A DNA stretch of 64,000 nucleotides from Neptunicoccus cionae. Its GTDB lineage: Bacteria > Pseudomonadota > Alphaproteobacteria > Rhodobacterales > Rhodobacteraceae. The translations under genes and the position numbers were made by a program. Shown in pieces: positions 7,073-32,832 of this stretch. The stretch lies in NCBI RefSeq assembly GCF_002860325.1, contig NZ_PKOJ01000001.1, forward strand, positions 1,116,001 to 1,180,000, given 5' to 3'. The notes under the pieces are model-generated. The model saw only the letters and a program-made list of their open reading frames with translations. It searched no databases and was not told the DNA's origin. Within the stretch, counting starts at the first letter, position 1; every line of letters starts with the position of its first letter.

Positions 7073-7884
7073 TCGCAGCACGGATTTCCGCCGACAGGTT
7101 GCACCTGCAGCACGGGCCGATTGATCTGATCATCGGCGTTGACGGTGACCGTGAAGCCGCGTTTGCCGCCGCTGAAGCACGTTTTTCCACGATCCTTGAA
7201 GAACTTGTCGCGGAACTCCCCCTGTTGCGCAAGCCGATGCCGGTGGCGCCGCGCGGGCATGTGGCACAACGTATGGCGCGGGCGGCGGCGGGATATCGGG
7301 ATTTCGTCACGCCCATGGCTGCGGTGGCAGGGGCTGTTGCAGATGAAGTTTTAACCGCGATCCGGACGCAAACACGCCCTGAACGGGCATATGTGAACAA
7401 CGGCGGTGACATCGCGGTGTTTTTGGCCAAAGGACAAACGTTTAACGTGGGTATTGCCGGACTGGATGCAGCGGCGCTGGGCAATGTGACACTGCGCTCG
7501 GGTGACGGGATTGGCGGGATTGCCACCAGCGGGCAGGGCGGGCGTAGCCTGTCCCTTGGGATCGCCCAAAGCGTGACGGTTCTGGCTGACTGCGCGGCGG
7601 TGGCGGATGCCGCAGCGACACTGATTGCCAACAGGGTTGATTTGCCGGACCATCCCGCTATCACGCGGGAGAGGGCAGACCGGCTGGACCCTGACAGCGA
7701 TCTGGGCGACCGGATGGTTGTTACGGGATGCGGCCCTTTGGGGGCGAAGGACAAAAGGCGCGCCTTGGAAAATGGCGCGCGACTTGCGCAGGATTTACAG
7801 GCGCAAGGACGCATAAAAGCGGCTTACCTGCTGTTGCAGGGGGAAAGCCGTGTGATCGGGATAGAGGAGCTGGCACATGCCTGA
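7069..7884 (+). CDS. UPF0280 family protein (ApbE-like)
   Basis: A 271-residue protein of the UPF0280 family, related to the ApbE/FMN transferase fold but of unknown function. Visible family blocks are HLQHGPIDLIIGVDG, RAYVNNGGDIAVFL, GIGGIATSGQGGRSLSLG and a DLPDHPA-like stretch. There is no signal peptide, so it should be cytoplasmic, unlike most ApbE proteins. The ATG overlaps the hnr stop as ATGA and its own end overlaps the next gene by 8 bp. Since ApbE relatives attach or hydrolyse flavins and the operon has at least two flavoproteins, a flavin-related maturation role is possible. That is inference only. Confidence 0.8.
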   Translation: MIAARISADRLHLQHGPIDLIIGVDGDREAAFAAAEARFSTILEELVAELPLLRKPMPVAPRGHVAQRMARAAAGYRDFVTPMAAVAGAVADEVLTAIRTQTRPERAYVNNGGDIAVFLAKGQTFNVGIAGLDAAALGNVTLRSGDGIGGIATSGQGGRSLSLGIAQSVTVLADCAAVADAAATLIANRVDLPDHPAITRERADRLDPDSDLGDRMVVTGCGPLGAKDKRRALENGARLAQDLQAQGRIKAAYLLLQGESRVIGIEELAHA

Positions 7885-23496: not shown

Positions 23497-25245
23497 ATGG
23501 ACCACAAAGAAATTTTCCAGAACAAACTGAATACCTTCATCCACCAGATTTATCCTGCCGCTGACAGTGAAGTGCTGGCGCAGGAAATTATCGCAGCCTT
23601 CTGGCCGCAGGGATCCACACAACGGCCCGAGGGCCGCGCTCCGAGCAATGACCTGTGGACAGAGCAGGATGCCCTGTTGATCACCTATGGCAACTCCATT
23701 GTGGACGGTGCGCACAAGCCGCTGGACCTGCTATATGATTTCTTATTGCGCAGGATGAAAGGCGTGCTGAACGGCGTCCATATCCTGCCGTTCTTTCCCT
23801 ATACGTCTGACGACGGTTTTGCTGTGTCCGATTTTCGCGCGGTGAACCCGCAACTCGGGGACTGGGCTGACATTAACCGCATCGGAGAGAGCTTCTCTCT
23901 GATGTCCGATCTTGTTTTGAACCATGTGTCCAGTCAGGGCCAGTGGTTCAACAGTTACCGTCAAGGGCAGGCGCCATATGACCGCTACTTCTTTGAAGCA
24001 AGCCCCGAAGATGACCTGAGCACTGTTGTGCGGCCCCGAACCACACCATTGTTGCAGGAAATCGAAACCGTCAATGGTCCGCGTCACGTCTGGTGCACCT
24101 TCAGCCACGACCAGATCGATCTGGATTTCCGTAATCCGGAAGTTCTGCTGGAATTCCTTCGGATCATCCGATTGCATGTGGACAATGGCGTGCAGATCAT
24201 CCGGCTCGATGCGGTGGCTTTCCTGTGGAAAGAGGCAGGAAGCGCCTCCATCCATCTGCCCCAGACTCATGCCATTATCAAACTGATGCGGTTGCTGTGT
24301 GATTATGCAGAAGAAACAATTATTCTACTGACCGAAACCAATGTGCCCAAAGCCGAAAACCTCAGCTATTTCGGCAACCACGACGAAGCCCACGCGATCT
24401 ACAACTTTCCTTTGCCGCCGTTGATCCTGCACGCAGTCATGTCCGGTTCTGCCCATTATCTGCGCCGCTGGCAAAGCGGTATGCCCCCTGCGCCGATGGG
24501 CTGTGCCTATCTGAATTTCACGGCCAGTCACGACGGTATTGGCATGCGTCCTGCCGAAGGGATTCTGCCAGACGAAGAACAGGCGCGCATGATTGACACG
24601 ATCAGGGACATCGGTGGCCTTATATCCATGCGCTCTCTGCCCGATGGAGGAGAGGCCCCGTATGAGATCAACACCACCTACTATGAAGCCACATCGCAAA
24701 CCTTTGAGGGCAAGGACGACTACCACTTCGATCGTTTCATCTGCACCCAGACAATTCCGATGTCGCTGGAAGGCATTCCTGCGTTTTACATCCATTCGAT
24801 GCTGGCAACACCGAATGACCATAAACAGGTTGCGCACCGCGGGATGAACCGAGCGATCAACCGCCATCGTTGGGGCTATCCCGAATTGAACGCCCGTCTT
24901 GACGATCCCAGTTCGGCGCAGTCCCGCGTGCTGACAGCCTTGTCAGAGCGGCTGCGCATTCGCGCAAAGCAGCCGGCATTCCATCCCAATGCGACCCAGT
25001 TCACCATGCCGCTCGGCGATCACGTGTTCGGCGTGTGGCGCCAGAGCCTTGACCGCCGCCAGTCGATTTTCGCGCTGCATAACGTCAGCAATAAAACCGT
25101 GTCCTTGTCCCATCTTTCGATGAACCTGATTGAGGATGTCGAGTGGGTCGACCTGTTGAGCGGTGAAACGGTCGATATGGATCAGGAAAACGTCACGCTT
25201 GCGCCGTACCAGTGCCGGTGGATCACAAACTACACAGCCGTCTGA
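23497..25245 (+). CDS. GH13_18 glycoside phosphorylase, likely glucosylglycerate phosphorylase
   Basis: A 582-residue (beta/alpha)8 enzyme of the sucrose-phosphorylase subfamily. Catalytic residues are visible: IIRLDAVAFLW (nucleophile Asp), ILLTETNVPKAENLSYF (acid/base Glu) and LNFTASHDGIGMRP (transition-state Asp). The early block LLYDFLLRRMKGVLNGVHIL and FFPYTSDDGFAVSDF are typical. It faces the gpgS/phosphatase pair across a 27-bp gap. That context points to phosphorolysis of glucosylglycerate (GGA) to glucose-1-phosphate and glycerate, as known for some GH13_18 members. Sucrose phosphorylase is the alternative. Confidence 0.78.
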   Translation: MDHKEIFQNKLNTFIHQIYPAADSEVLAQEIIAAFWPQGSTQRPEGRAPSNDLWTEQDALLITYGNSIVDGAHKPLDLLYDFLLRRMKGVLNGVHILPFFPYTSDDGFAVSDFRAVNPQLGDWADINRIGESFSLMSDLVLNHVSSQGQWFNSYRQGQAPYDRYFFEASPEDDLSTVVRPRTTPLLQEIETVNGPRHVWCTFSHDQIDLDFRNPEVLLEFLRIIRLHVDNGVQIIRLDAVAFLWKEAGSASIHLPQTHAIIKLMRLLCDYAEETIILLTETNVPKAENLSYFGNHDEAHAIYNFPLPPLILHAVMSGSAHYLRRWQSGMPPAPMGCAYLNFTASHDGIGMRPAEGILPDEEQARMIDTIRDIGGLISMRSLPDGGEAPYEINTTYYEATSQTFEGKDDYHFDRFICTQTIPMSLEGIPAFYIHSMLATPNDHKQVAHRGMNRAINRHRWGYPELNARLDDPSSAQSRVLTALSERLRIRAKQPAFHPNATQFTMPLGDHVFGVWRQSLDRRQSIFALHNVSNKTVSLSHLSMNLIEDVEWVDLLSGETVDMDQENVTLAPYQCRWITNYTAV

Positions 25246-25272
25246 CGGGTTCTAGCCGCTAGACGGGCGGGA

Positions 25273-26490
25273 TTAATACTCCGCCTCGTCTGCCTTGGCT
25301 GCTGCGTGCATATCCGCAAGAAAGCTCGGGTCTGCTGCATGGACACGGTTCCATGTCGGGATGAAAGGGGTTTCATGGGGATTGTCCAGAAACACCTGTC
25401 CCGCCCGCATGATGTTTTCGGCAAACATTTCGATCGACCGCTCTTCGGAGTGACGGTCAATATCAAGTCCGTTCATCTTGGCTTCGCTGCAATAGCCGTC
25501 CAGCAAATCCAGCGCCGAACGGTAATAGGTCGCTTTTAACGTGCGGAACACGTTCGGGGTAAAGACTGTTCCATCTGCGGCCAGCTTGCGAAAGATCGCC
25601 TTGCAGATATCCGTCGACATGCGGTTCAGCCCTGCGCCTGCCTCATCAGGGCTGAGGTCCTGATGTTTGTGATCATACGCGTCGGAAATTTCTACCTGAC
25701 AGACGGCTTTGGGGGCCAGATTGCGCCAGGCTTCGGATAAAACGCCGATTTCCAGACCCCAGTCCGACGGGATACGCAAGTCCGGAAGGATCGCCGTACG
25801 CATCGCGAATTCGCCGGACAGCGGATACCGGAAGCTGCGCAGGTAATCGATGTAATCCCGCGATCCGATCACACGGTTCAACGCAATCAGGAGCGGGCTG
25901 ACCAGCAGGCGGGAGACACGTCCGTTCAGCTTGCCGCCACCGATCCGCGCGTAATAGCCTTTGGCGACCTGATAGGGGAAAGAAGGGTTCGCAACCGGAT
26001 AGACCAGACGGGCCAGCATTTCCCTGTCATAGGTCAGAATATCGCAATCGTGAATCGCCATCACCGCACTGTCAGAACAACTGATCAGATAGCCGAGCGA
26101 AGACCACACATTCTTGCCCTTGCCCTGTTCGCTTGGTGCAAGTCCCAATTCCTTCAGCCGTTCCCCCAGCGCCAGCATACGGGGGCTGTCATTCCAGATG
26201 ACGATATGGTTCTGGTTTAATCCGCGGAAAAACTCTTTGGCATGGCGGAACTGCGCCTCGTTCGCGGCATCCAAACCGATGATTATGCGATGGAGGTAGT
26301 TTACTTTGGATAACTCCTCAAGAATGTGAGGCATCGCATCCCCCTCAAGCTCCGAGTAAAGGCAGGGCAGGATCAGTGCAATCTTGCGGGTTGTGGCAAA
26401 GGCGTTCAGCTCTGCTTCCATTTCACGGATCTCGCGGACGCGAAGATTGTGCAGTGTCGTGATGTTTCCGTTCTGATGGAAGTCGGACAT
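25273..26490 (-). CDS. gpgS: Glucosyl-3-phosphoglycerate synthase (GT81)
   Basis: A 405-residue retaining glycosyltransferase that would make glucosyl-3-phosphoglycerate from NDP-glucose and 3-phosphoglycerate, the first step to the osmolyte glucosylglycerate. Visible elements are IALILPCLYSELEG, IGLDAANEAQF, GKGKNVWSSLGYL, the metal-binding DCDILTYDREML (DxD-type) and the FRYPLSGEFAMR acceptor-site block. DWGLEIGVLSEAW and AYDHKHQDLS with its histidine match GpgS. The phosphatase gene lies 10 bp upstream on the same strand. Mannosyl-3-phosphoglycerate synthase is less similar. Confidence 0.8.
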   Translation of the reverse strand: MSDFHQNGNITTLHNLRVREIREMEAELNAFATTRKIALILPCLYSELEGDAMPHILEELSKVNYLHRIIIGLDAANEAQFRHAKEFFRGLNQNHIVIWNDSPRMLALGERLKELGLAPSEQGKGKNVWSSLGYLISCSDSAVMAIHDCDILTYDREMLARLVYPVANPSFPYQVAKGYYARIGGGKLNGRVSRLLVSPLLIALNRVIGSRDYIDYLRSFRYPLSGEFAMRTAILPDLRIPSDWGLEIGVLSEAWRNLAPKAVCQVEISDAYDHKHQDLSPDEAGAGLNRMSTDICKAIFRKLAADGTVFTPNVFRTLKATYYRSALDLLDGYCSEAKMNGLDIDRHSEERSIEMFAENIMRAGQVFLDNPHETPFIPTWNRVHAADPSFLADMHAAAKADEAEY

Positions 26491-26500
26491 GTTTACTTTC

Positions 26501-27286
26501 CTATTTTATTCCAAGCTGCGTAATCAGGTCGAGCACTGCTGTATTCCAGCCAGCCGGCCCTGCCTCTAGGGTGCGCGTAATCCGCCCCGAAGCCTCGGGT
26601 TCAAGCTCGGGCAAGGGCGGGCGCGAGGGGTTTGCAATAATAACCCCGTGGTCTGCATGTTCCAGCATTGCAATATCGTTCGGAGCATCCCCAAGCGCAA
26701 TTGTATGGGCGGGCCGGTATGTTTCATTGATCTTTGCCATTTGATCTACTTTGTTCGTGCCAAACGACAAGGTTAAAAATCGCCCGCCTTGTTGGGCAGA
26801 GACCCCGTGCTCTGCCAGGGCTGCAAGAAAGCGATCCAGTTCCACAGCGCTACCGCTCCACAATCCGGGTTCGGAAAAGCTGCGCGTCTGCGCAAGTGCG
26901 GCCGCTTCTGGTGATAGGCCGGTCATTTCCACAATCTCCGCGGTGCTGACATCCCCGAAGCCACGGAAACAGCTGCGCAATTGAGCGGGCAGGGCAGCCA
27001 GAATATTCCTGATGGACCGGTAATCCCCGTCATCCGGCACCGCATCCACAAAAGGGGGAAGTACGCCGGCCCCGTTCTCCACAATTGCCGGCCAGTCCTC
27101 ACAGCCGATCTCGGCCCGCAAGCGCGATATCTCCGGCGCAGTCTTGCTGCTTGCCAGCACAAGTCCGGCCGAAACGGCCTTAATCCTGGCAATAGCCGGC
27201 AGAGCGGCCGTAAACCTGTAACTGTGATGATCAATCAAAGTGCCATCGAGATCGGTGAACACAATCAAATTACATTGGGAATTCAT
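26501..27286 (-). CDS. HAD-IIB phosphatase, mannosyl/glucosyl-3-phosphoglycerate phosphatase type
   Basis: A 261-residue HAD hydrolase that probably dephosphorylates the GpgS product to glucosylglycerate. Motif I is FTDLDGTLIDHHSY, motif II LVLASSKTAPEI, motif III the lysine in FGTNKVDQM and motif IV IALGDAPNDIAMLEHAD. The cap stretch RLRAEIGCEDWPAIVENGAGV is as in MpgP/YedP. I use ATG 27286 (MNSQCNLIVFTD). The frame upstream to 27439 would run into the tRNA-Cys att repeat and is not conserved. No strong Shine-Dalgarno is seen. Confidence 0.78.
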   Translation of the reverse strand: MNSQCNLIVFTDLDGTLIDHHSYRFTAALPAIARIKAVSAGLVLASSKTAPEISRLRAEIGCEDWPAIVENGAGVLPPFVDAVPDDGDYRSIRNILAALPAQLRSCFRGFGDVSTAEIVEMTGLSPEAAALAQTRSFSEPGLWSGSAVELDRFLAALAEHGVSAQQGGRFLTLSFGTNKVDQMAKINETYRPAHTIALGDAPNDIAMLEHADHGVIIANPSRPPLPELEPEASGRITRTLEAGPAGWNTAVLDLITQLGIK

Positions 27287-27392
27287 AATTTTATACTGAA
27301 CGAGTTCCCAAACAGGCACAAGAGCCACAAAGCGCCAGACTGCAGTAAATAGCCGGGGCGATGACAGGTTCGTGGAGTTGGCGGGGGGAAGT

Positions 27393-27439
27393 AAATGGAG
27401 GCGAGTACCGGAATCGAACCGGTGTACACGGATTTGCAA
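27393..27439 (-). repeat. Left attachment site: duplicated 3' half of tRNA-Cys
   Basis: Forty-seven bases identical to 32756-32802, covering the tRNA-Cys 3' end from anticodon GCA through T-arm, acceptor and CCA plus AAA. Identity stops abruptly at the anticodon (27440), which places the crossover in or near the anticodon loop, a usual site for tyrosine integrases. It is not a functional tRNA. Confidence 0.9.
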
Positions 27440-27771
27440 GACTAGGCATGTATTTGATCCAAAGCGTTTTTTTGCCTAGATATGGTAGAAATTTGATTGG
27501 AACATATCAAGAATGTTTAGGAGATTTCGTTGATTAAAAGTTACCATTAGAGGTAAGGTCTAGAGCATTTTTGCTTAACTGTTTTGATTGAGTTTTAGTC
27601 AGTGGTCGATTTTCGATAGACTGAACAATTGAGGCTTCTTAAGGTATCGATATTGTCTTTGCGTATGCGGTTCGAAGTTAGTTTCCTCAAATTGCCTAGG
27701 GATAATTAGCTTTCCACAAGGCTAAGATATCGGTAGTTCCAAATTTAATTTCATTACAATAAAGGTATTTG
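27440..27771 (+). other. AT-rich leader between attL and the RT-nitrilase gene
   Basis: 332 bp without a convincing ORF. It contains short inverted repeats (CTAGGCA at 27442-27448 with TGCCTAG near 27473-27479; TTACC/GGTAA near 27542-27556). It must hold the promoter of the RT gene. Because several defence RTs use an adjacent non-coding RNA, this stretch is a candidate place for one, but nothing proves it. Confidence 0.4.
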
Positions 27772-30756
27772 ATGATTTCCCTTGAACGAATTGAACATCT
27801 CGGTCTGGCCTTTCGTAAGGCCAAGGTTGATCTCTACTATTCTACCCACTCAGACTTAGAACTTATAGCTGATTACGAGGATGCGCTTAACCAAAATCTT
27901 CGTGAATTGTACACTTTGATCAATGGTGACAACGAGGAGTGGGTGAAGCATAGAGAGTTTGTTGGTTCATGGATGCTTGTGCCCAAAGCAATTAAACTTC
28001 CGCAGGAAAAAGAAGAAGATCACTCTGACAGTCTCTATTTTTCTTCACCATCAGACAAGTGGAAGAATCGTTTTCACCAAACAAGTGGTGTGGAAAAGCC
28101 AACCGCTGAGTTTCGATTGATGTCGAAGTGCAGCATGAATTTTCACATCCTATCTTCACTGTGGATGATCGAAGTAGGCCATTTATTTGATCAAAAGTTG
28201 ACAGTGTGCGCATATGGAAACCGCCTTCGGAGGTCAACAGATGGGCAAGAAATTAACGAGCTTTCCTTAGGTTCTTTCGAACCTTATTTGAAACCCTTTC
28301 GGGATTGGCGTGATACTGGCATTGATACCATACGGGACGCGCTTGATGCTGAAAAAAACGTTGTTGCAGTTACAGCGGATGTGAATTCTTTTTACCATGA
28401 ACTGGATGCCAGTTTCATGTTGAGTACTCGTTTTACTGAAAAGATATTGGGGGTACAGTTAGATGAATGGCAAACGAAGTTAAACCGACTATTTGTTTCC
28501 GCCTTAAAAGCTTGGGCAGACGCAACGCCATTAAAGAAGGGTCTCCCAGTAGGGCTTCCTGCCTCAGCTGTTATTGCAAACGTTGCCTTGTTTGAGTTGG
28601 ATCGAGCAATGGAAACTGAGGTTGTGCCATTGTATTATGGACGCTACGTCGATGACATAATGCTGGTTATGGAAAAAGGCGCCAATTTTCAATCCAGCTC
28701 TGATGTATGGGAGTGGTTATTCCATAAGAGTCGGGGTCTTCTTAAATGGGGTGGCGAGAAAAATAGAGATGTAACTTATTGCCCACCTTATTTGGAGGTT
28801 TTGAATTGTAGGGTATGTTTTTCAAACTCGAAAAATAAGATATTTTTACTTTCAGGCGATGAGGGTAGAGCCCTTTTAGGTTCGATTGCTCAGCAAATTC
28901 AAGAAAGAGCAAGTGAGTGGCGCTCAATGCCTCATATACCTCGTTCGGCAAGCGACGTAGGGGCAAACTTGCTTTCCGCCGCACAGCTTACTGGAGAGGC
29001 TACTGACGGGCTTAGGACAGTCGATTCACTGGCGATACGCCGTGCGGAATTTGCTATGAGATTGCGCGATATGGAGGCCTTTGAACGTGATCTACTTCCA
29101 GATTCATGGAGAGAACACCGTGAGGCGTTCTTGGGCGCATTTATTCAGCATGTTTTGGTTCTCCCCCAATTTTTTGATTTAGCTATATATCTTCCTCGTG
29201 TTGTAGCTTTGGCTACTTCATGTGAAGACTTTGATTTATTGAAAAAAATGTTGATCACTATCGATCAAATTTGTGATTTGATTGCTAGTACCTGTGAAAT
29301 TTCAATCAAGGCATGTCCTGATGTTTCTGCGGTTACAGATCAAATCTCAGTAGTTTTTGGGTGGCCACAGCAATTAAAAGAATCCTTTTGGTCTAGTGTG
29401 AAAGCTGCATTCCCTTCGCAATTGTCACGAAGAGCTGAAAAAAAATGGATTGAACTATTCCAATCGGAACCTAATTTGACAGTTCAAGATATGAAAACGG
29501 CCCAACAACGACTCTTTTCCTATGACTTGGCTCACATGCCTTTCCGTTTTGCTTCACTTCCCAATGAGGTATTAGCGATACGAAGTCTACCTGTGGTGGA
29601 AAATATCCATCCTATCGAAGATACTCTGCCTTTTCTTCCAAGCTCAGTGATTGACGGACTAACTATTTTATCTACAAAATGGCTCAAATTCGAGGCAATT
29701 CCAAATGGATTTTTGTTTGCAACAAGACCGTTCAGTCTCGCAGAGCTCTCTTTATTAAGGCGGGAACTTTATTCGGGTGAAGAACTTGAAGATTTGAATA
29801 AAGTTGTACTTTCATTGCGTGGTTTTACTGTAACTGACCGAATGCCGTATTTTGATGATGAAGGTGTACTACAAGTATCTGATAGCTCACTTACAATGAA
29901 ATGCCGCATTGGGGTATCTAGCTGGAAAACTAGTATCGATAGTTGGGTCAAAGCTGTGGTTAATAAGACTGGCGATGACTTTGATCGTTACACTCGACTC
30001 AATAATTTCATTGATCACTTGTTATCCGAACCATCTGATTGCCGCTATCTCATTCTGCCCGAACTGTCATTGCCAGCAAACTGGTTTTTGCGGATTGCAC
30101 GCAAGCTGCATGGTAGGCGTATTTCACTATTATCTGGTGTCGAATATTTGCACGCTGGTAAAGGAATTGTGCGCAATCAAGTATGGGCGGCACTATCTCA
30201 CGACGGATTAGGCTTTCCTTCGTTTATGATCTACCGCCAAGACAAGCAGCGGCCCGCATTCCATGAGGAACAAGAACTACAGAGAATAGCTGGCTTAAGG
30301 CTATCCCCTGAAACGGAGTGGGAAACGCCCCCCATCATTCAGCATGGCAAATTTCGTTTTGCCATATTAGTTTGTAGTGAGTTAACAAATATATCTCATC
30401 GTGCTGAATTGTCGGGTAACATTGATGCTCTATTTGTTCCCGAGTGGAATCAGGATACTGAGACATTTAATGCACTCGTTGAATCTGCCGCGTTAGACCT
30501 CCCAGCCTATATTATTCAATGTAACGATCGTCAGTATGGTGATAGCCGCATTCGCGCTCCCTACAAAGATAACTGGAAAAGAGATCTGTTGAGGGTGAAA
30601 GGTGGCGTTTCTGACTACTGTGTCATCGGCGAAATTGATGTTGAAAGTCTCCGTCAATTTCAAAGTAGCCACAGATCACCGAACCTTCCGTACAAGCCAG
30701 TACCTGATGGGTTTGAGATAAGTCCAAGCCGAAAGACGCTACCTAAAGCTGAATAA
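27772..30756 (+). CDS. Defence-associated reverse transcriptase fused to a nitrilase domain (DRT type 1 / UG1-like)
   Basis: A 994-residue two-domain protein. The RT part spans roughly residues 110-400: VTADVNSFYHELD (first catalytic Asp ~203), KKGLPVGLPASAVIANVAL, and GRYVDDIMLVME with the YVDD box at ~292-295. The last ~250 residues are a carbon-nitrogen hydrolase: LILPELSLP (Glu 764), IYRQDKQRP (Lys 825) and FAILVCSELT (Cys 868), giving an intact Glu-Lys-Cys triad with normal spacing. RT plus nitrilase is the known architecture of the anti-phage DRT type 1 (UG1) family. ATG 27772 follows AAAGG. The gene is AT-rich, with codon use unlike its neighbours, and is the main cargo of the element. 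Confidence 0.85.
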   Translation: MISLERIEHLGLAFRKAKVDLYYSTHSDLELIADYEDALNQNLRELYTLINGDNEEWVKHREFVGSWMLVPKAIKLPQEKEEDHSDSLYFSSPSDKWKNRFHQTSGVEKPTAEFRLMSKCSMNFHILSSLWMIEVGHLFDQKLTVCAYGNRLRRSTDGQEINELSLGSFEPYLKPFRDWRDTGIDTIRDALDAEKNVVAVTADVNSFYHELDASFMLSTRFTEKILGVQLDEWQTKLNRLFVSALKAWADATPLKKGLPVGLPASAVIANVALFELDRAMETEVVPLYYGRYVDDIMLVMEKGANFQSSSDVWEWLFHKSRGLLKWGGEKNRDVTYCPPYLEVLNCRVCFSNSKNKIFLLSGDEGRALLGSIAQQIQERASEWRSMPHIPRSASDVGANLLSAAQLTGEATDGLRTVDSLAIRRAEFAMRLRDMEAFERDLLPDSWREHREAFLGAFIQHVLVLPQFFDLAIYLPRVVALATSCEDFDLLKKMLITIDQICDLIASTCEISIKACPDVSAVTDQISVVFGWPQQLKESFWSSVKAAFPSQLSRRAEKKWIELFQSEPNLTVQDMKTAQQRLFSYDLAHMPFRFASLPNEVLAIRSLPVVENIHPIEDTLPFLPSSVIDGLTILSTKWLKFEAIPNGFLFATRPFSLAELSLLRRELYSGEELEDLNKVVLSLRGFTVTDRMPYFDDEGVLQVSDSSLTMKCRIGVSSWKTSIDSWVKAVVNKTGDDFDRYTRLNNFIDHLLSEPSDCRYLILPELSLPANWFLRIARKLHGRRISLLSGVEYLHAGKGIVRNQVWAALSHDGLGFPSFMIYRQDKQRPAFHEEQELQRIAGLRLSPETEWETPPIIQHGKFRFAILVCSELTNISHRAELSGNIDALFVPEWNQDTETFNALVESAALDLPAYIIQCNDRQYGDSRIRAPYKDNWKRDLLRVKGGVSDYCVIGEIDVESLRQFQSSHRSPNLPYKPVPDGFEISPSRKTLPKAE

Positions 30757-31150
30757 ATCTTGAGTATTCATTAATGGCTAATGTATGTCCGCCAAACATC
30801 AAAAATGAAAATTCGCATAGTTCATTCAAACAAAAGCATCATGCCCCCGTAGACGCAAGGATCGGAGGGGGCAGGAGGCGGCCCCACCATACCCACTATC
30901 CTAGTCAGTCTATTGCACTTTGTGACACTCTGTTGATTTTAAAATAGAAAAAGCGACTTTAGTATCATCAGAGGGAATGGAGACCACTTAAACAGTGAAT
31001 TCTGGCTCTGGTCGATGAACCTCAAAGTACTATTCGTAACAGATTATCTAAGCGTTAAAAAGAAGGCCGCCTTTGATGATTTGGATAAACAATTGTCACC
31101 AAGTGCTAAAAAAACGGTAACGAATTATTTCAATTGTTACAGTTTGGTAT

Positions 31151-31273
31151 ATGCGTTTAGTGACACCGCCCGTGATCGGCGGATTTGCAACCATAGCTCC
31201 TCCTGTCCTAACTTCGCCCCTAGAACCGTTTGCATGGGTTTTCCCATTCGTCCCACTGGACGCGCAAACTTAA
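31151..31273 (+). CDS. Possible 40-residue hydrophobic, proline-rich peptide
   Basis: The frame opens at ATG 31151 and starts MRLVTPPVIGGFATIAPPVL; it ends at TAA 31271-31273. The composition (P, V, F-rich) looks more protein-like than random, but no Shine-Dalgarno is clear. The same bases form the nested stems described for 31190-31295, so it may be non-coding. Confidence 0.2.
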   Translation: MRLVTPPVIGGFATIAPPVLTSPLEPFAWVFPFVPLDAQT

Positions 31274-31526: not shown

Positions 31527-31700
31527 ATGTCAGTTTCAAATATCGAACAACGTGCGCTAAGCTTACTTAACTTATTTGAGAAAGAAGGAAAAACAGTCAG
31601 TCGTGTCACTATAGAGGGCAGAAAGATTGAACTGGTGCTTTCCAAAGAGCAAGAATTTGACGAGTTCGAGGGGATTGATATGCGCCATGGCAAAACGTGA
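31527..31700 (+). CDS. Small protein coupled to the integrase (possible recombination directionality factor)
   Basis: A 57-residue acidic protein (MSVSNIEQRALSLLNLFEK at the start). It overlaps the integrase gene by 14 bp, so translation of the two is linked. It begins with a helix and continues with two strands, IEGRKIELVL. Small ORFs directly upstream of integrases are often excisionases or integrase regulators, but I see no helix-turn-helix. ATG 31527 is chosen because the longer frame from 31476 lacks a ribosome site. Confidence 0.6.
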   Translation: MSVSNIEQRALSLLNLFEKEGKTVSRVTIEGRKIELVLSKEQEFDEFEGIDMRHGKT

Positions 31701-32697
31701 GCTTCCGAAACATATATACAAACAGAAAAACGGTCTCTATTTCCAAAGACGCGGCTGGCCGTCAGTGAAGCTTGCGAATGAGTTTGGTACGCCGGAATTC
31801 TGGATGGAATATGCCGACATACTTACGGGCAAGGAAAAGCCTAAACGGGTTACTTCCCGCAACTTTGCGGCGTTAGTTTCTGATTATCGAAAGTCGCCCC
31901 GTTACCGAAAGCTTAAGCCTCGTACGGCGCTCGATTATGACAAGTACCTCGAATTCTTCCTTTCAATCATGGGCGATGCAAATCCGGCCAATATGAAGCG
32001 CAAGGATGTTATCCGTTTACGGGATACCAACGCAGAAAAGATATACTTTGCTAATTACTCTTTGCGTGTCCTGCGCGTTCTAATGGAGCACTGCGTCGAT
32101 TTAGGTTGGCGTGAGACAAACCCAGCAAAGGGTGTTCAGGAATTTAAGACTGAGAAAGCAGAGCGCGAACCTTGGCCCTATGAGCTTCTTGAGGTCTATC
32201 GGGCTACATGCGCCCTAGGGACTAGAGAACGCCTTGTGATGGAGCTTTGCGTGGGTACTGGCCAAAGGATCGGCGACGTATTGGAAATGCGCTGGTCTGA
32301 TATTCAGGAAGGCGGCTTTGTCGTAAAGCAAAATAAAACGAGTAAGGAGCTTTGGGTTCCTATTCTTCCAGAGCTTCAGGCGGCGCTCAACGCGGCTAGC
32401 CGTCATTCTGTCTTTATCCTGACCAATGAGCGCGGAACGAACCGTTGGTCCTATCGTGGGGCTTCTCAGGCCGTCAGAAAGGTCAGAGAGGCGATTGGTG
32501 CCCTTAAGTATGATATTCATAGTTGGCGCTATAACGCTGCTTGTGAACTTGTTGAGGCTGGCTGCGGCGACGACTTGGTTGCATCTGTCACGGGGCAAAG
32601 TCCGGCCATGGTGCAACATTATACAAAGAAGGTTCGCCAAAAGATCAGAGCGATTCAAGCGCAGCAAAAACGAACAGAACAAAAACAGAATGTTTAG
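31687..32697 (+). CDS. Tyrosine recombinase / phage-type integrase
   Basis: A 336-residue integrase that would catalyse site-specific recombination at tRNA-Cys. Residues 1-55 are an arm-binding-like region (HIYKQKNGLYFQRRGWP) and 60-160 the core-binding SAM-like domain. The catalytic part contains GTGQRIGDVLEMRW (Arg 194), Lys in the KTSKELWVP hairpin (~217-220), DIHSWRYN (His 278, Arg 281) and VQHYTKK (Tyr 312). The usual LGH before the tyrosine is TGQ here, so the second histidine position is replaced, as sometimes seen in rhizobial and rhodobacterial integrases. ATG 31687 is inside the preceding ORF; the gene ends 58 bp before attR. Confidence 0.92.
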   Translation: MAKRELPKHIYKQKNGLYFQRRGWPSVKLANEFGTPEFWMEYADILTGKEKPKRVTSRNFAALVSDYRKSPRYRKLKPRTALDYDKYLEFFLSIMGDANPANMKRKDVIRLRDTNAEKIYFANYSLRVLRVLMEHCVDLGWRETNPAKGVQEFKTEKAEREPWPYELLEVYRATCALGTRERLVMELCVGTGQRIGDVLEMRWSDIQEGGFVVKQNKTSKELWVPILPELQAALNAASRHSVFILTNERGTNRWSYRGASQAVRKVREAIGALKYDIHSWRYNAACELVEAGCGDDLVASVTGQSPAMVQHYTKKVRQKIRAIQAQQKRTEQKQNV

Positions 32698-32711
32698 ACA
32701 TTTGTTTAGAC
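32691..32711 (+). repeat. Tandem TGTTTAGAC, possible integrase arm sites
   Basis: TGTTTAGAC occurs at 32691-32699 and 32703-32711, twelve bases apart, between the integrase 3' end and attR. A shorter match, TGTTTAG, lies near attL (27514-27520). Spacing close to one helical turn suits protein arm sites. Confidence 0.4.
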
Positions 32712-32755: not shown

Positions 32756-32802
32756 AAATGGAGGCGAGTACCGGAATCGAACCGGTGTACACGGATTTGC
32801 AA
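32756..32802 (-). repeat. Right attachment site within tRNA-Cys
   Basis: The copy of the 47-bp repeat that is part of the intact tRNA gene. The element lies 3' of the tRNA and the integrase reads toward this end. Confidence 0.9.
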
Positions 32803-32832
32803 TCCGCTGCGTCACCACTCCGCCAACTCGCC
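32759..32832 (-). tRNA. tRNA-Cys (GCA anticodon)
   Basis: On the minus strand GGCGAGT pairs with ACTCGCC as acceptor stem. The D-arm is GCGGAGTGGTGACGC, the anticodon loop TTGCAAA gives GCA, the T-arm is ACCGGTTCGATTCCGGT, and CCA is encoded (complement at 32759-32761). It is intact despite serving as integration target. Confidence 0.96.

Follow-up and report, generated by a model that had tools for sequence, protein, structure and literature searches.

The element at tRNA-Cys

A stretch of 64,000 nucleotides from the alphaproteobacterium Neptunicoccus cionae (contig NZ_PKOJ01000001.1, positions 1,116,001 to 1,180,000; hereafter the window) carries at a tRNA-Cys gene a small integrative element whose cargo is UG5-nitrilase, a reverse transcriptase (RT) fused to a nitrilase. 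The element has relatives with other cargo, and the family may consist of integrative satellites of Microviridae that carry defences. The element measures 5,363 bp and is bounded by a perfect 47-bp repeat. The left copy, attL (27393..27439, plus strand), reproduces the 3' part of tRNA-Cys and is 100% identical in a repeat search to the right copy, attR (32756..32802, plus strand), which overlaps the intact tRNA-Cys (gca) gene, the integration target (32759..32832, minus strand). Between them, all on the plus strand, lie the UG5-nitrilase gene (27772..30756), encoding 994 aa organized as RT, helical region and C-terminal nitrilase; a first microvirus-origin-like segment with a stem-loop and a diverged nick-site-like end (30831..30933, 14.7 bits); a second such segment with the near-consensus TATGCGTTTAGTGACACC and without a strong hairpin (31087..31171, 17.8 bits); the Y-box, a conserved three-way structure in which one stem bears two hairpins (31228..31269); a 57-aa open reading frame (ORF) that overlaps the integrase start (31527..31700); and a tyrosine integrase (31687..32697; Pfam Phage_integrase 7.5e-17, phrog_1 1.8e-33). 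A 40-bp box at the integrase end and attR (32672..32711, plus strand) is presumably an integrase arm site. The 57-aa ORF is kept in the element family, with tblastn matches of 45–74% identity at 11 distinct places beside an integrase. The 40-bp box is 95–97.5% identical in the related loci L077, L078, L080 and L083 and 84–90% identical in others.

In an empty-site comparison, a search without a positive control, the left flank (25273-27392) had no match in four genus mates. The left flank at 23497-27439, with glycoside-hydrolase-like, glycosyltransferase-like and HAD phosphatase genes, may itself be accessory; the first two names come from reading the ORFs and not from a database match.

Identity and distribution of UG5-nitrilase

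The ORF spans 27769-30756 with an ATG at 27772, has no internal stop and is single-copy in its own genome. The PADLOC profile RT_UG5-nitrilase matches residues 6-993 with 987.8 bits, a second UG5-nitrilase model scores 154.9 and Drt1a 91.1. The gene is therefore almost certainly, on these profile scores, a UG5-nitrilase, a class-3 defence-associated reverse transcriptase (DRT). Class-3 DRTs have been defined by an RT plus a nitrilase or phosphohydrolase domain in a single protein (PMC13275509), and the 994-aa protein has this composition. The RVT_1 domain of Pfam matches residues 188-305 (E 3.9e-9), and the YVDD box lies at residues 292-295 (codons 28645..28656, plus strand). Pfam did not match a nitrilase domain in the protein up to E 1, and the PADLOC profile RTasNitrilase matches residues 717-982 (E 1.1e-40), including the stretch with the nitrilase residues E764, K825, E832 and C868 (30061..30375, plus strand). 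The YVDD box and these four residues are invariant in all six full-length UG5-nitrilases aligned (alignment A4). An AlphaFold2 model built from a six-row alignment was of moderate quality (mean pLDDT 63, pTM 0.40). A Foldseek search with this predicted model retrieved nitrilase-superfamily amidases (best E 6.4e-8; TM 0.71 for 3p8k, normalized by target length). Weaker matches were DRT4, UG15, DRT9 and DRT6, and the DRT1 structure 9YFD was absent among the best 50 matches listed.

An earlier note, made from the sequence alone, had described an RT-nitrilase fusion of DRT type 1, or UG1-like, with both active sites intact. The fusion is borne out by the RVT_1 and RTasNitrilase matches and by a predicted fold like that of nitrilase-superfamily amidases, and the catalytic residues E764, K825 and C868 lie exactly where claimed, with E832 in addition. 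The assignment to UG1 does not stand, since the search against UG and DRT profiles that the note had proposed places the RT outside UG1 (987.8 bits for UG5-nitrilase vs 91.1 for Drt1a, in a profile test and not a tree). Its description of the gene as AT-rich and as cargo of a small mobile element agrees with the GC content (43.1% in the gene and 43.9% in the element vs 57.4% in the remaining window) and with the tRNA-Cys repeat that bounds the element and its integrase gene.

The fusion of 'unknown class 5' RTs with a nitrilase has already been published (PMC8934634), and the RT-nitrilase by itself is a new member of the known class-3 kind; known UG5-nitrilases match it over the full length and have domains and active sites in common with it. 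The distribution of UG5-nitrilase across the genome samples is patchy. In the phylum sample a full-length match was found in 5 of 398 genomes, counting its own, one of them (L010) with an in-frame stop; four further genomes matched in the C-terminal part only, and the three of these tested were Drt1a. In the class sample the only matching genome of 385 was its own, and in the family sample the whole protein was found in its own genome alone (1 of 295), with short stretches in six others. Five of the ten matching plasmid records cover at least 80% of the protein (S. meliloti at 56% identity, E. coli at 29%), and phage records contained no match. A single-protein scan of genome contigs gave one relative, L002. 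Among viral contigs, an alignment query found 116 loci, of which 80 were kept; the three tested (L190-L192) are full-length UG5-nitrilases, and the others mostly match the RT stretch only. The UG5-nitrilase of L002 (5980-8998) has a frameshift and lies in a BREX locus with pglX on one side and pglZ on the other, that of L012 adjoins a pglX-like gene, and that of L010 adjoins a PDC-S02 gene. The window gene differs in setting, as it rides alone on its tRNA-Cys element, whereas the relatives in L002 and L012 have pgl or pgl-like genes as neighbours.

A family of elements with exchangeable cargo

At E 1e-30 the integrase finds matches in 64 of the 295 family genomes, and in 15 of these (its own included) identity reaches at least 68%, in some cases along part of the length. 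The surroundings of these close integrases and of the genus mates were compared together with ten integrase loci from viral contigs (L171-L180, with a detailed reading of L171-L174), and duplicate loci were counted once (L001/L013, L021, L051, L081 within L087, L100 within L171). Seven elements are complete, namely those of the window (5363 bp), L171 (5240 bp), L082 (5299 bp), L073 (5301 bp, with the right repeat copy at the contig end), L087 (5705 bp), L077 (5763 bp) and L086 (5877 bp). The tRNA-Cys gene is a general integration hotspot of these bacteria, with islands of 2.5–17.6 kb in L074, L075, L079, L071 and L072. These other islands measure 2.5, 2.7, 9.9, 11.3 and 17.6 kb, two remnants measure 2.0 kb (L090 and L092), and no match to the origin model R1 described below was found in the other islands at E 1.

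The cargo differs from element to element. L077 carries a type IIG restriction-modification system of MmeI type, L080 (right end cut by the contig) a CBASS with patatin, cyclase and E2, L086 Dsr1, L087 a retron of type I-C RT-Toprim, L171 SIR2-HerA and L172 (cut) the candidate PDC-S73. L073 carries a NACHT-like protein, slightly below the Pfam cut-off, with pentapeptide repeats, L082 unclassified genes with a nuclease domain, and L084 one unclassified ORF. With a library of defence models only, 7 of the 10 family elements with scanned cargo, the window included, gave a strong match; of the remnants, L090 gave a weak nuclease match and L092 none. L171 and the window are 90.7% identical over a core of 1,645 nt and carry unrelated cargo (SIR2-HerA vs UG5-nitrilase), which is direct evidence of cargo exchange. 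Judged by these comparisons, the 5.36-kb integrative element carries UG5-nitrilase at tRNA-Cys as a cargo that can be exchanged.

The integrase modules of L087 and L084 lie in inverted orientation with respect to tRNA-Cys, with the 40-bp attR box in place, as though a segment had been flipped. Viral contigs of 31–48 kb (L175-L179) carry an integrase of 68–71% identity, the same attR-side box and, in most cases, a tRNA-Cys sequence, and the element integrase may have been derived from, or passed to, larger prophages.

The non-coding core and its microvirus-like origin

Three boxes are common to the elements between the cargo and the 57-aa ORF. The Y-box was aligned in ten sequences, excluding the diverged box of L082. 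In this alignment 96.2% of cells pair, and a slide by one column reduces pairing to 36–37%. Fourteen cells are changed on both sides, where shuffles give 4.5 (sd 1.7), and the covariation of 0.285 (0.144 when shuffled) was reached by none of 500 shuffles. Among the 295 family genomes, 6 contain the Y-box pattern, in one copy each and always at family elements; it is also present in two viral contigs, each time adjoining a family integrase.

The 18-base box TATGCANTTAGTGACACC is present in 60 viral contigs, and in 57 of these a microvirus Rep, a capsid protein or both are encoded. The other three include the sister element L171/L100; no microvirus gene was found in L137 and L147, which hold the site and were excluded from the origin set. 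Of 63 sites, 54 sit 10–31 nt ahead of a rep-like start. The closest named relatives of the Rep of one such contig are cultured roseobacter microviruses (65% identity), and the origin region of these phages has the layout seen in the elements: a strong hairpin, followed by about 30 nt that include CTTGTT, followed by the 18-base box. Several elements bear two copies of the site. Two microvirus contigs, L138 and L105, have three and two origin copies, respectively, about 5.4–5.5 kb apart and represent joined or chimaeric genomes.

Near-duplicate removal at 0.87 similarity reduced 62 microvirus origin segments to 12, and 11 of these, trimmed to 100 bases (alignment A3; L128 was excluded because its layout differs), gave the model R1. 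All 11 are IMG/VR sequences, and no element entered the model. R1 was run against 38 sources (524,588 bases) comprising the window, the elements, other islands and larger prophage-type contigs with a sister integrase. Eight family elements matched at E 0.0035 or below, each in the expected non-coding segment: L080 (6.1e-12, 62.9 bits), L086 (3.7e-11, 59.6 bits), L171 (2.7e-9), L087 (8.4e-9), L078 (3.1e-7), L077 (5.3e-5), L073 (8.2e-4) and L172 (3.5e-3). Weaker family matches were L084 (0.081), L089 (0.12), a second copy in L086 (0.21), L082 (0.31) and a second copy in L078 (2.9). Outside the family the first match was in L074 (E 3.8); the last (E 5.9) fell in L092, beyond the limits of its remnant. 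CRPss-251, a distant cultured microvirus that resembles none of the training sequences, scored 59.9 bits, no better than L080, and CRPss-151, CRPss-152 and CRPss-155, which are near the training member L112, scored 86–95 bits. L171 scored 51.6 bits at the place homologous to 30831..30933 of the window. In a search of the window alone up to E 10 the model gave two hits only, at 31087-31171 and 30831-30933, both in the expected segment.

Across the 295 genomes, under stricter filters, R1 gave seven hits at E 0.01 or below. Five are family elements, and the other two lie on contigs with plasmid initiator genes (L189 and L188). L189 (5,857 bases) combines a Rep3 plasmid initiator with an element-type stem-loop and a microvirus nick-like site, and its 78-base terminal repeat indicates that it is probably a circle of about 5.8 kb; it may be a plasmid that travels in microviruses as well. 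On L188, a contig with an RPA plasmid initiator, R1 matches the site part only (7411-7444).

In an independent blastn search, the L086 origin had four hits among 50,697 phage records, all in roseobacter microviruses upstream of rep (E 8e-3). The L171 origin was compared with plasmids, and the best 20 of 43 records, all at E 3, were dismissed as chance. The CRPss-152 origin matched six plasmid records, one Rhodovulum plasmid at E 6e-10 and five others at E 4. In this Rhodovulum sulfidophilum plasmid (AP014801.1, 80089-80129) 41 bp of the CRPss-152 origin hairpin are found at 97.6% identity.

Possible satellites of microviruses and alternative explanations

The elements have several traits of phage satellites: an integrase, att sites, no microvirus capsid gene found and a length that fits a helper capsid. 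The CRPss phages, cultured with Roseobacter strains given as hosts, are 5409–5828 bp long and the elements 5240–5877 bp. No match to microvirus rep or capsid was found in 11 family loci, the window and three other loci, and a comparison of the CRPss-151 and CRPss-251 proteins with a wider locus set again gave no rep or capsid match in the elements; the capsid search covered the microvirus type, and tailed-phage capsid families were not searched separately. The shared origin, the lack of a detected rep or capsid gene, the microvirus size, the att sites with integrase and the swapped defence cargo together suggest that the element family represents integrative satellites of Microviridae carrying defences, to which we assign a probability of roughly 0.5–0.55. 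Origin similarity, att sites, integrase, size range and cargo exchange are evident from sequence comparison.

We infer excision, recognition by Rep, packaging and transfer as follows. The integrase, perhaps with the 57-aa ORF, would move the element into and out of tRNA-Cys. The Rep of an infecting microvirus would recognize the origin copy of the element and produce circular single strands of it by rolling circle, and these would be packed in microvirus capsids, whose capacity would keep the elements at 5.2–5.9 kb. That such tRNA-integrating, capsid-limited satellites shuttle one defence system each among alphaproteobacteria of the roseobacter kind stands, in our estimate, at even odds.

Several observations weigh against the satellite reading. 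The origin copies of the window are weak (E 0.028 for 31087-31171 and 0.14 for 30831-30933 in 64 kb; 0.23 and 1.2 in the 38-source search), R1 gave no hit at E 0.01 or below in the genome of the window, and a blastn search of its whole non-coding segment against phages found no microvirus origin, its only two matches lying within a capsid gene at chance level (E 0.8). The origin copy of the window may be worn and less competent than those of its sisters. Of the 15 genomes that have a close integrase, no more than 5 pass E 0.01, and several of the others are worn or truncated by a contig end. L080 and L172, both of which bear the origin, gave no match to the Y-box pattern. L084, L086 and L089 each have an integrase divided between two reading frames, so that not all family members are intact. 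No free circle of 5–6 kb bearing the integrase was found among viral contigs (three and ten integrase loci), which is weak counter-evidence because IMG/VR is probably biased towards contigs bearing viral hallmark genes. Finally, a search of the literature, limited to open-licence papers and hence a weak negative, found no microvirus satellite.

These same weak origin copies and the missing free form, together with the decay seen in the two 2-kb remnants (L090 and L092) and in the frame-split integrases, would be expected of an ordinary defence islet at tRNA-Cys that has no helper phage and whose origin-like DNA is an inherited, unused microvirus fragment. This explanation is unlikely, though to be taken seriously. 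Origin and Y-box are maintained across elements with unrelated cargo, elements and phages have similarly narrow size ranges, and an unused fragment would hardly go on scoring like a genuine microvirus (62.9 and 59.6 bits for the two best elements vs 59.9 for CRPss-251). It is less probable again that the origin copy acts as a decoy that guards the cell against microviruses by titrating or misdirecting their Rep, while the element moves by another route. A decoy draws on the same origin evidence as the satellite reading, with which it is compatible, and would suit the two site copies of several elements and the 7 of 10 scanned cargoes that match defence models; it needs neither the narrow range of 5.2–5.9 kb nor the Y-box, and the site is also found on two plasmid-type contigs. 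Quite improbable is a defective temperate microvirus that has swapped its structural genes for defence and is now mobilized by plasmid rolling-circle machinery. L189 has a Rep3 plasmid initiator together with an origin of the element type, and microvirus prophages have been reported in roseobacters (PMC8224337), but no microvirus gene was found in the elements, and among the blastn matches listed for element origins those at E <1 are only phage and none plasmid.

Possible mechanism of UG5-nitrilase

The earlier note held that the mechanism and the nitrilase substrate of this architecture were unresolved. The mechanism has since been solved for DRT1 (UG1; PDB 9YFD) in a study published in June 2026, while the substrate is still described as unknown (PMC13275509). 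According to that study, DRT1 carries out template-free DNA synthesis primed on S402 and forms filaments driven by DNA, its defence requires RT and nitrilase alike, its C-terminal tail acts as a lid on the nitrilase pocket, and changes in the tail at K1219 or A1223 abolish defence (PMC13275509). DRT5S and DRT5L were also purified in the same work (PMC13275509), and our guess is that DRT5L corresponds to UG5-nitrilase.

In a profile comparison 9YFD is the best solved sequence match to the window protein (E 1.8e-16). The two proteins are alike in RT, helical region, nitrilase, catalytic residues and a Lys-x-x-Pro motif in the C-terminal tail; they differ in length (994 aa vs 1229 aa), and the window protein reaches only 91 bits against the Drt1a model. 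The Lys-x-x-Pro motif, present in all nine UG5-nitrilases and all four Drt1a proteins compared, fits a DRT1-like lid. The S402 region lies outside the alignment of the window protein to 9YFD. From the YVDD box to residue 473, S381 is the only Ser, Thr or Tyr invariant among six UG5 proteins, and it sits 86 residues past the second Asp of YVDD, compared with a distance of 77 between D325 and S402 in DRT1; on this invariance and spacing S381 is a candidate priming residue. Counting against the analogy, S402 is reportedly not conserved outside DRT1 (PMC13275509). By analogy, UG5-nitrilase probably works by a DRT1-like mechanism. The proposal, drawn from the conserved residues and DRT1, is that UG5-nitrilase would prime untemplated DNA on itself and assemble into an inactive oligomer. 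Phage infection would free the C-terminal nitrilase/amidase, which would deplete an essential amide or amine metabolite and lead to abortive infection. The combined account, in which a UG5-nitrilase with DRT1-like action travels in a microvirus-satellite vehicle, appears slightly better than evenly balanced.

That the UG5 protein instead reverse-transcribes a dedicated non-coding RNA, like class-2 DRTs, is hardly credible: the 331 nt upstream and about 770 nt downstream of the gene without an evident gene would offer room in the window, but a same-strand ORF lies within 34 nt upstream of the gene in five of seven relatives inspected, leaving no space there for an upstream RNA of its own; the boxes downstream are part of the mobile element and follow the integrase rather than the cargo, on which ground a dedicated RNA was rejected; and purified class-3 DRTs function in the presence of RNase A (PMC13275509). 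An Rfam scan of the window gave two tRNAs only.

Comparison with known systems and significance

The nearest in style to the family elements are the PICMIs, satellites of marine Vibrio (PMC10803314). Both are small, integrase-borne and without capsid-remodelling genes, and both carry defence cargo, retrons and DRTs among it, in a slot (PMC10803314). The PICMIs differ in having a tailed virulent helper phage, packaging as concatemers, a site beside fis and a prim gene (PMC10803314), whereas no replication gene was found in the family elements and their origin is of microvirus type. Satellites of inoviruses are also known, such as the plasmid pDolos and RS1, and differ in that the helper is a filamentous phage; the review cited contains no 'microvir*' (PMC11389934). 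Temperate microviruses and microvirus prophages are on record (PMC8224337; PMC3091885) and resemble the elements as microvirus-derived DNA resident in bacterial genomes, including those of roseobacters (PMC8224337). They are described as keeping capsid and replication genes, and none were found in the family elements. Charybdis elements measure about 4.6 kb, have a structural module and are assigned to a marine group II archaeal host (PMC12324425). The family elements, in contrast, reside in bacterial chromosomes, measure 5.2–5.9 kb and carry an integrase and defence cargo; the structural proteins of Charybdis were not searched for.

A further comparison comes from laboratory work on phiX174. 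A 1982 paper by van der Ende reportedly describes plasmid single strands packaged in phiX174 coats, and a cloned phiX174 origin is said to permit packaging. Such packaging offers a precedent for the satellite reading; the phiX174-origin plasmids are laboratory constructs, unlike the natural family elements.

The vehicle would matter more than the RT-nitrilase, which adds one member to a known family. The covarying Y-box is conserved, which makes it a natural candidate signal for packaging or strand conversion. The satellite question can be tested at once because roseobacter microviruses (the CRPss series) exist. Microviruses have been described as highly abundant in aquatic ecosystems (PMC11195240). 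If the satellite reading is true, it would explain how single defence systems move between bacteria in microvirus-sized packets, and microviruses would gain a role in the spread of immunity.

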